From contig CASERH010000012.1 of NCBI GenBank assembly GCA_949290295.1, positions 1-34,299 of the forward strand: a stretch of 34,299 nucleotides of DNA. The letters run 5' to 3'. Origin of the DNA: an uncultured Pseudomonadota bacterium. GTDB lineage: Bacteria > Pseudomonadota > Alphaproteobacteria > RF32 > CAG-239. The notes beneath the pieces were generated by a model. That model saw nothing but the letters and a program-made list of their open reading frames with translations, had not been told where the DNA came from and searched no databases. This document shows positions 32,308 through 32,510 of this stretch, piece by piece. Every line of letters starts with the position of its first letter. Positions within the stretch are counted from its first letter, which is position 1. A program made the translations under genes and the position numbers.

Positions 32308-32340
32308 AAAAAGAAACCGCCTTAAATGAATTTAAGGCGG
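32308..32340 (-). terminator. Terminator upstream of the HTH gene
   Basis: CCGCCTTAAA and TTTAAGGCGG (32317-32326 and 32331-32340) pair perfectly around a 4-nt loop. Read on the minus strand it is followed by TTTCTTTTT. It points toward the HTH gene, ending the leader RNA ahead of it unless bypassed. Confidence 0.85.
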
Positions 32341-32477
32341 GGAGGTAGAAACTGTGCTAGAACAGTCCGGGTTCTTCGACATACAAGTATGCTTATACCC
32401 CCGGCTCCCCATAAAAGGAGTTGTTCTTTTTCTAGCAAGGAGCTTCTACACTCCGCAGGCGCAACTCGCCCCTGCAT
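32308..32477 (-). ncRNA. Structured RNA of about 170 nt, leader of the HTH gene or free small RNA
   Basis: On the minus strand an RNA starting near 32477 would fold into nested helices: GC(A)GGGG (32469-32475) with CCCCGC (32337-32342), GTAGAA (32444-32449) with TTCTAC (32345-32350), and GCTAGAA (32430-32436) with TTCTAGC (32356-32362), enclosing CCGGG/CCCGG and other apical hairpins. It ends in an intrinsic terminator 35 nt before the HTH start. The outermost helix uses bases of the terminator's left arm, so the two compete, as in a riboswitch. It does not match tmRNA, SRP RNA or RNase P; a 6S-like identity is possible but not supported by conserved sequence. Confidence 0.5.
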
Positions 32478-32482
32478 TGCTA

Positions 32483-32510
32483 ATACTAGAGCAGAAAAAT
32501 TAATTTGCAA
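32483..32510 (-). promoter_or_regulatory. Promoter of the structured RNA
   Basis: TTGCAA (32505-32510), a 16-nt spacer and TAGTAT (32483-32488) on the minus strand place the transcription start at about 32476-32478, exactly where the outermost helix begins. Confidence 0.5.

Follow-up and report, generated by a model that had tools for sequence, protein, structure and literature searches.

A multicopy relative of sRNA-Xcc1 with two competing folds, a candidate leader of small HTH regulator genes in Alphaproteobacteria

The small RNA sRNA-Xcc1 (Rfam family RF02221, which belongs to no Rfam clan) has so far passed for a trans-acting sRNA linked to virulence, its mechanism unknown. Its known settings are Xanthomonas integron cassettes, Xylella islands and phages, and Northern blotting has established it as a real RNA of about 100 nt (PMC2996969). 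The C4 antisense RNA of phages P1 and P7 (RF01695; the name c4-a1b1 appears in PMC2864571) has a characteristic order, in which the decoys a1 and b1 are followed by an antisense RNA with the segments a' and b' and by a downstream regulator gene; both these segments and the processing of the phage RNA by RNase P have been described (PMC5320573). In Acinetobacter baumannii, the Group 1 C4-like sRNAs occur in many chromosomal copies with a conserved scaffold and variable antisense segments (PMC5320573). Attenuators and riboswitches of the terminator-platform type, finally, are leaders in which two exclusive folds compete and a terminator stands just before the gene.

RF02221 was found in 57 of 398 genomes of the phylum. 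Among 30 such loci, the antisense tail of the RNA pairs with an upstream decoy over at least 7 bp in 93% (control 24%), and with the region of the downstream ribosome site in 63% (control 16%), the downstream matching segments flanking, in most loci, the ribosome site of the next gene. One locus (L176) may serve as an example, with the decoy TGCAAA...ACACAAG, the antisense segments CTTGTGTC and TTTGCAA, and the gene start TGCAAAGGAGACACAAGCCATG. The downstream proteins tested are of the Bro-N, P22_AR_N, Rha and KilA-N types, which are phage antirepressors or regulators, and twice SymE. The RNA of Escherichia phage Rac-SA53 is placed 38 nt ahead of ant, and sRNA-Xcc1 is annotated in the record of a Vibrio phage, where a small gene and a DNA-binding protein follow it. 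As judged from these comparisons, the predicted layout of the RF02221 loci is that of the phage P1/P7 C4 antisense RNA, consisting of decoys a1/b1, a three-way-junction RNA with a' and b', and targets. In addition, the closing stem of the element described below begins with GG, as does that of the C4 antisense domain, and the sRNA-Xcc1 model begins at the same place. A literature search of limited scope found no published link between RF02221 and the C4 layout. The comparison provides sRNA-Xcc1 with a concrete arrangement of decoy, antisense and a target at the ribosome site of an antirepressor or SymE gene, and its function is therefore directly testable. Across Proteobacteria, the 5' decoy and the ribosome-site targets of sRNA-Xcc1 loci (L159-L188) lie outside the Rfam model.

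The locus under study lies in a window of 34,299 nucleotides, the whole stretch of DNA that was analysed, where the minus strand of region 32308-32510 encodes a strongly structured RNA of about 170 nt. The unit of RNA and HTH gene, viewed within 31982-32582, is flanked by accD and by a convergent gene (30858-31982) whose function is unknown. The parts are the following.

32510-32483, minus strand: sigma-70-like promoter, with -35 TTGCAA at 32510-32505, -10 TAGTAT at 32488-32483 and a 16-nt spacer
32475-32455, minus strand: P1, local 5' hairpin GCAGGGGC/GCGCCTGC, by covariation in 108 sequences
32454-32439, minus strand: Pa, local hairpin GGAGT..(A/G)CTCC whose loop holds decoy a1, by covariation
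32449-32441, minus strand: a1, decoy complementary to antisense a' (long-range helix P2), by covariation and complementarity
32437-32430, minus strand: b1, decoy TGCTAGAA complementary to antisense b' (long-range helix P3), by covariation
32449-32441 with 32353-32345 and 32437-32430 with 32362-32355, minus strand: nested long-range helices P2 and P3, by fold and covariation
32420-32405, minus strand: P4, local hairpin CTCC/GGAG, the rival of the C4-type closing stem for GGGGAG, by covariation
32410-32339, minus strand: C4/sRNA-Xcc1-like antisense domain with closing stem, P5/P6 arm and hairpin Pb, by covariation and RF02221 matches of homologues
32410-32405 with 32344-32339, minus strand: closing stem, GGGGAG with CTCCCC, by covariation
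32362-32355, minus strand: b', antisense segment TTCTAGCA in the loop of Pb, by covariation and complementarity
32353-32345, minus strand: a', antisense segment AGTTTCTAC, by covariation and complementarity
32340-32308, minus strand: intrinsic terminator CCGCCTTAAAT/ATTTAAGGCGG with a T-rich tail (stem 32340-32317, T-run to 32308), its base common to the closing stem
32282-32043, minus strand: ORF of a small XRE-like HTH protein of 79 aa, with the SD sequence AGGAG

The ORF starts about 35 nt past the terminator stem and 56 nt past the RNA core, and its protein matches Pfam HTH_25 with an E value of 9e-5, a little short of the curated cut-off.

The core folds with a minimum free energy of -60.2 kcal/mol; dinucleotide shuffles average -40.2 (sd 3.8), which gives a z of about -5.3. 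Among 22 paralogues of the same genome, 95% of the cells are paired and 22 of 39 pairs show double-sided changes, giving a covariation score of 0.42, where shuffling gives 0.18 and sliding the partners no more than 0.08. When the comparison is extended to 108 sequences, two folds are supported. Fold I, made of P1, P2 and P3 (decoy with antisense), P4, P5 and P6, scores 0.683, and fold II, made of P1, Pa, the closing stem, P5, P6 and Pb, scores 0.575, both far above the shuffled (0.18-0.19) and slid (at most 0.114) controls. As the alignment was built with the fold I model, the counts lean towards fold I, and for the same reason Pa, the closing stem and Pb do not owe their support to the fit. 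In these sequences P1 has double changes in 8/8 pairs (97% paired), Pa in 4/5 (90% paired) and P3 in all four counted pairs, while P4 is 96% paired and is compensated in three loci (L134, L158 and L124). The competition centres on GGGGAG (32410-32405), whose two partners, the local CTCC of P4 and the distant CTCCCC, exclude each other; in distant copies both have been compensated together with it, as in GGCGGAG/CTCCGCC (L134) and GGAAGGAG/CTCCTTCC (L124).

This picture keeps much of what the first-pass annotation had proposed for the region and relocates the rest. Its promoter-like pair, TTGCAA/TAGTAT with a 16-nt spacer, is conserved across the own-genome paralogues, its helix at the predicted transcript start corresponds to the covarying hairpin P1, and its intrinsic terminator about 35 nt before the small HTH gene stands. 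Of the three nested long-range helices that it had drawn, two are P2 and P3, whereas the outermost (32469-32475 with 32337-32342) is unsupported, since the bases of its upstream arm belong to the local hairpin P1. The overlap with the terminator, which had been attributed to that outermost helix, is instead made by the closing stem (32410-32405 with 32344-32339), which in 108 of 112 copies has 2-6 nt in common with the terminator base. Another helix, 32454-32451 with 32342-32339, was rejected as a main feature: its third pair (column 45) fits Pa better, and its conservation is mostly explained by the other helices in which each of its partners takes part.

As predicted from sequence, the element thus combines mutually exclusive folds, one of which would affect a terminator, as expected of an attenuator. 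In the fold of lowest free energy, the long-range helix stacks next to the terminator and the two coexist. The closing stem and the terminator overlap by only 2-3 nt in the window's own group, so that fold II may weaken the terminator little.

The earlier view that the RNA fits no known class has not survived comparison with its distant homologues, although the window itself falls below every Rfam threshold. Homologue L144 matches RF02221 with 56.2 bits, above the gathering cut-off of 53; six further homologues (L149, L150, L137, L148, L151 and L061) match it with E <0.002, in register and over the same 3' half. The layout, moreover, is of the C4 type. The window reaches 16.9 bits against the cut-off of 53, in the same register as the homologue matches, and the search of its own genome with RF02221 gave no match. 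The structure line of RF02221 has the same helix order as fold II, the model corresponding to the 3' half of the element, and the three-way-junction consensus is present, with the closing stem, P5, P6 and Pb all covarying in the 108 sequences. It can be stated with high confidence that the 3' half is akin to sRNA-Xcc1; by the rule of Rfam the window lies outside RF02221, yet in its presumed working it resembles the C4-like sRNA-Xcc1 kind, with which it very probably has a common ancestry. A comparison of the window with RF01695 gave no match at E up to 10, nor did the Rfam search return any 6S match at that E value, which leaves the suggestion of a divergent 6S RNA without footing.

The two types share a three-way junction built of the closing stem, the P5/P6 arm and the hairpin Pb; both often have a small gene close behind the RNA and sometimes occur in clusters. 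They differ in that the Rfam model, of 87 nt, has no counterpart of the 5' half of the window-type element, and in that RF02221 loci mostly have downstream ribosome-site targets and no obvious T-run terminator, the reverse of the window type. In the window's order, the antisense segments a'/b' are complementary to the decoys a1/b1 over at least 7 bp in 88% of 114 copies, compared with 17% for mismatched loci used as control, and the letters of decoy and antisense differ between copies, complementarity being kept in nearly every copy. A downstream target a2/b2 at the ribosome site of the HTH gene was sought in the 85 nt after the RNA and is absent, pairing there being no more frequent than in the control (11% vs 11%). 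Where RF02221 loci carry the target, an intrinsic terminator stands. Compared with phage C4, the window type has no a2-b2 target, has a terminator, and carries an HTH gene in place of icd/ant.

It could be argued that the freed 3' half is an independent antisense sRNA that silences other mRNAs, be they of the cell, a phage or a plasmid, and that the HTH gene is a mere neighbour with regulation of its own. The element has its own promoter and terminator, a C4-type antisense domain and copy-specific codes, all of which suit such a role, as does the detection of sRNA-Xcc1 as an RNA of its own on the Northern blot (PMC2996969). The C4-like sRNAs of A. baumannii, moreover, which are abundant and undergo processing at GGW, have been proposed to work in trans (PMC5320573). 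However, in 0.92 Mb of the own genome there is no excess of matching ribosome sites (59, vs 108 and 81 with reversed and complemented codes), and the spacing to the HTH gene is constant in 83% of copies, making this explanation unlikely. The A. baumannii RNAs, which share with the window type the many chromosomal copies and the variable segments on a conserved scaffold, also differ from it in being gammaproteobacterial, in matching C4 in Rfam and in having been described as stand-alone RNAs (PMC5320573), whereas the window type has a fixed link to an HTH gene and a fold driven by the decoy.

The association with the downstream gene is an argument for action in cis. Of the 102 copies with enough sequence, 85 (83%) have a start codon at a distance of 47-70 nt behind the RNA, compared with 11/285 (4%) in the control, and the downstream proteins of the window's lineage fall into 16 clusters, nearly all of XRE-type HTH. 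About one sixth of the copies have no gene at the usual place, and many of these are upstream members of tandem groups, interrupted or otherwise altered. In one distant family (f23), several copies have no clear terminator, and CTCCC closely precedes a complementary GGGAG ribosome site. The riboswitch-like leader of the first-pass annotation is therefore retained as a cis-acting leader, on the strength of the gene spacing, of the two covarying exclusive folds and of these ribosome-site copies; a small-molecule ligand is not needed, because the variable helices are antisense/decoy pairs. Like terminator-platform attenuators and riboswitches, the window type is a leader with two exclusive folds and a terminator just before the gene; in contrast to them, it has no known ligand, and its switching helix is an antisense/decoy pair whose letters vary by copy. 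Should a metabolite or protein nevertheless bind at the internal loop of P5/P6 and shift the balance of the folds, the unpaired AUAAG and CGAA(U)AA, invariant in nearly all copies, would be the natural site, and both the exclusive folds and the terminator or ribosome-site platforms downstream would be in keeping with it. The P5/P6 arm, however, is also part of sRNA-Xcc1, which to our knowledge is not known as a riboswitch, and the downstream genes depend on the family, ranging from HTH proteins, lipoproteins and pilin-like proteins to restriction-modification and antirepressors, so widely that there is no common metabolic theme. Such ligand sensing is accordingly regarded as very unlikely.

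Several copies precede genes of other kinds. In the own genome, two RNAs (L028, at about 2299-2520, and L032) precede a small protein (MTETQTFYNDIPSNT...), which has no Pfam match and is not an HTH protein. The f23 RNAs (L062, L066, L068, L070 and L136), most of them with no clear terminator, stand before a repeated gene family with the N-terminal pilin-like segment MNRTQKGSxxxEAxVMLGLIA, for which the one member tested had no Pfam match. In two distant genomes (L144 and L151), genes for an Mrr-type restriction endonuclease and for an N6/N4 DNA methylase follow the RNA, neighbours pointing to defence or island contexts.

Taken together, the favoured reading, to which somewhat more than even credence is given, is that the element is a chromosomal multicopy relative of C4 and sRNA-Xcc1 that serves as the self-contained leader of a small HTH regulator gene and has two competing folds. 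In fold I, the decoy would pair with the antisense segments, P4 would hold GGGGAG, and the terminator stem would be complete, which we infer to be the resting, terminated state yielding the short RNA only. In fold II, the C4-like three-way junction would form, and its closing stem GGGGAG:CTCCCC would capture the base of the terminator stem. When the decoy is kept from the antisense, fold II would be favoured, termination weakened and the HTH gene reached by read-through. Possible triggers are another RNA of the same code pairing with a1/b1, a cleavage between the two halves, of the kind that RNase P carries out on phage C4, or a factor bound at the conserved AUAAG/CGAA loop of the P5/P6 arm. 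The energies of the folds in the window, -74.2 kcal/mol for fold I vs -58.7 for fold II, are in keeping with fold I as the terminated default; the gap of about 15 kcal/mol that fold II would have to pay stands against the leader model.

The repertoire of codes would insulate the roughly 28 switches of one genome from each other. A bolder proposal is offered tentatively and on the doubtful side of the balance: a phage-type antisense RNA may have been turned inward, so that it 'targets' its own 5' decoy and controls its own terminator, giving one small genome about 28 differently coded, insulated switches. Each of them would drive an XRE regulator of its own, and an RNA of matching code, brought in for instance by a phage or plasmid invading the cell, might be its trigger. 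If the switch model is true, it would represent a natural set of orthogonal RNA switches derived from a part of phage immunity.

With regard to distribution, a DNA search of the own genome gave 30 similar places including that of the window, the others with 71-88% identity, and a first covariance model, built from the 22 full own-genome copies, located 28 copies there. Among relatives of the genus, copy number ranges from 0 to 28 per species. With a second covariance model, the RNA was found in 140/153 genomes and 16/17 genera of the order, and in 24/385 genomes, of 18 genera, in a sample of the class. Those records with the core motif that bear a name belong to uncultured Alphaproteobacteria, and the labels of several give the gut of deer and sheep as their source; a search of viral contigs, which contained the RF02221-type core in 37 of them, gave none with the window-type RNA. 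There is a large chromosomal branch in gut Alphaproteobacteria, of which no earlier description was found in the literature searched, where the target has gone and a terminator has been gained, before small HTH regulators and in up to 28 copies per 1.5-Mb genome.

Of the members of the genus that were read, only the three closest genomes carry the unit at the accD site, and the others lack it; in genome G008 (locus L378) the window's two neighbour genes are adjacent, with no RNA-HTH unit between them. Together with the 0-28 copies per species within one genus and the tandem copies at five loci (L118, L124, L129, L131 and L157), this filled and empty site has suggested a short mobile or duplicating cassette of RNA and HTH gene (about 0.5 kb), in which the RNA would serve the cassette itself through copy control or immunity between copies. 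On the other hand, no transposase or defined ends were found in the unit, near relatives keep units at the same site, and presence or absence is uninformative on the role of the RNA, so that this explanation is held to be as improbable as ligand sensing, and the cis-acting leader remains preferred.

Tandem arrays comprise two to four RNAs (L124 at 770-1650, L118, L129, L131, L157, L053 and L088), in which the upstream RNAs often have no ORF and extend into the next copy's promoter. Furthermore, five own-genome paralogues (L015 at 7140-7240, L025, L026, L029 and L030) have their 3' part interrupted or truncated by one other repeat, TTTCGTCTTGCTGCGTAGGTTTCGCGC...CTCAATCAAG; since all five are broken by the same repeat, a second repeat family evidently inserts in, or recombines with, these RNAs.
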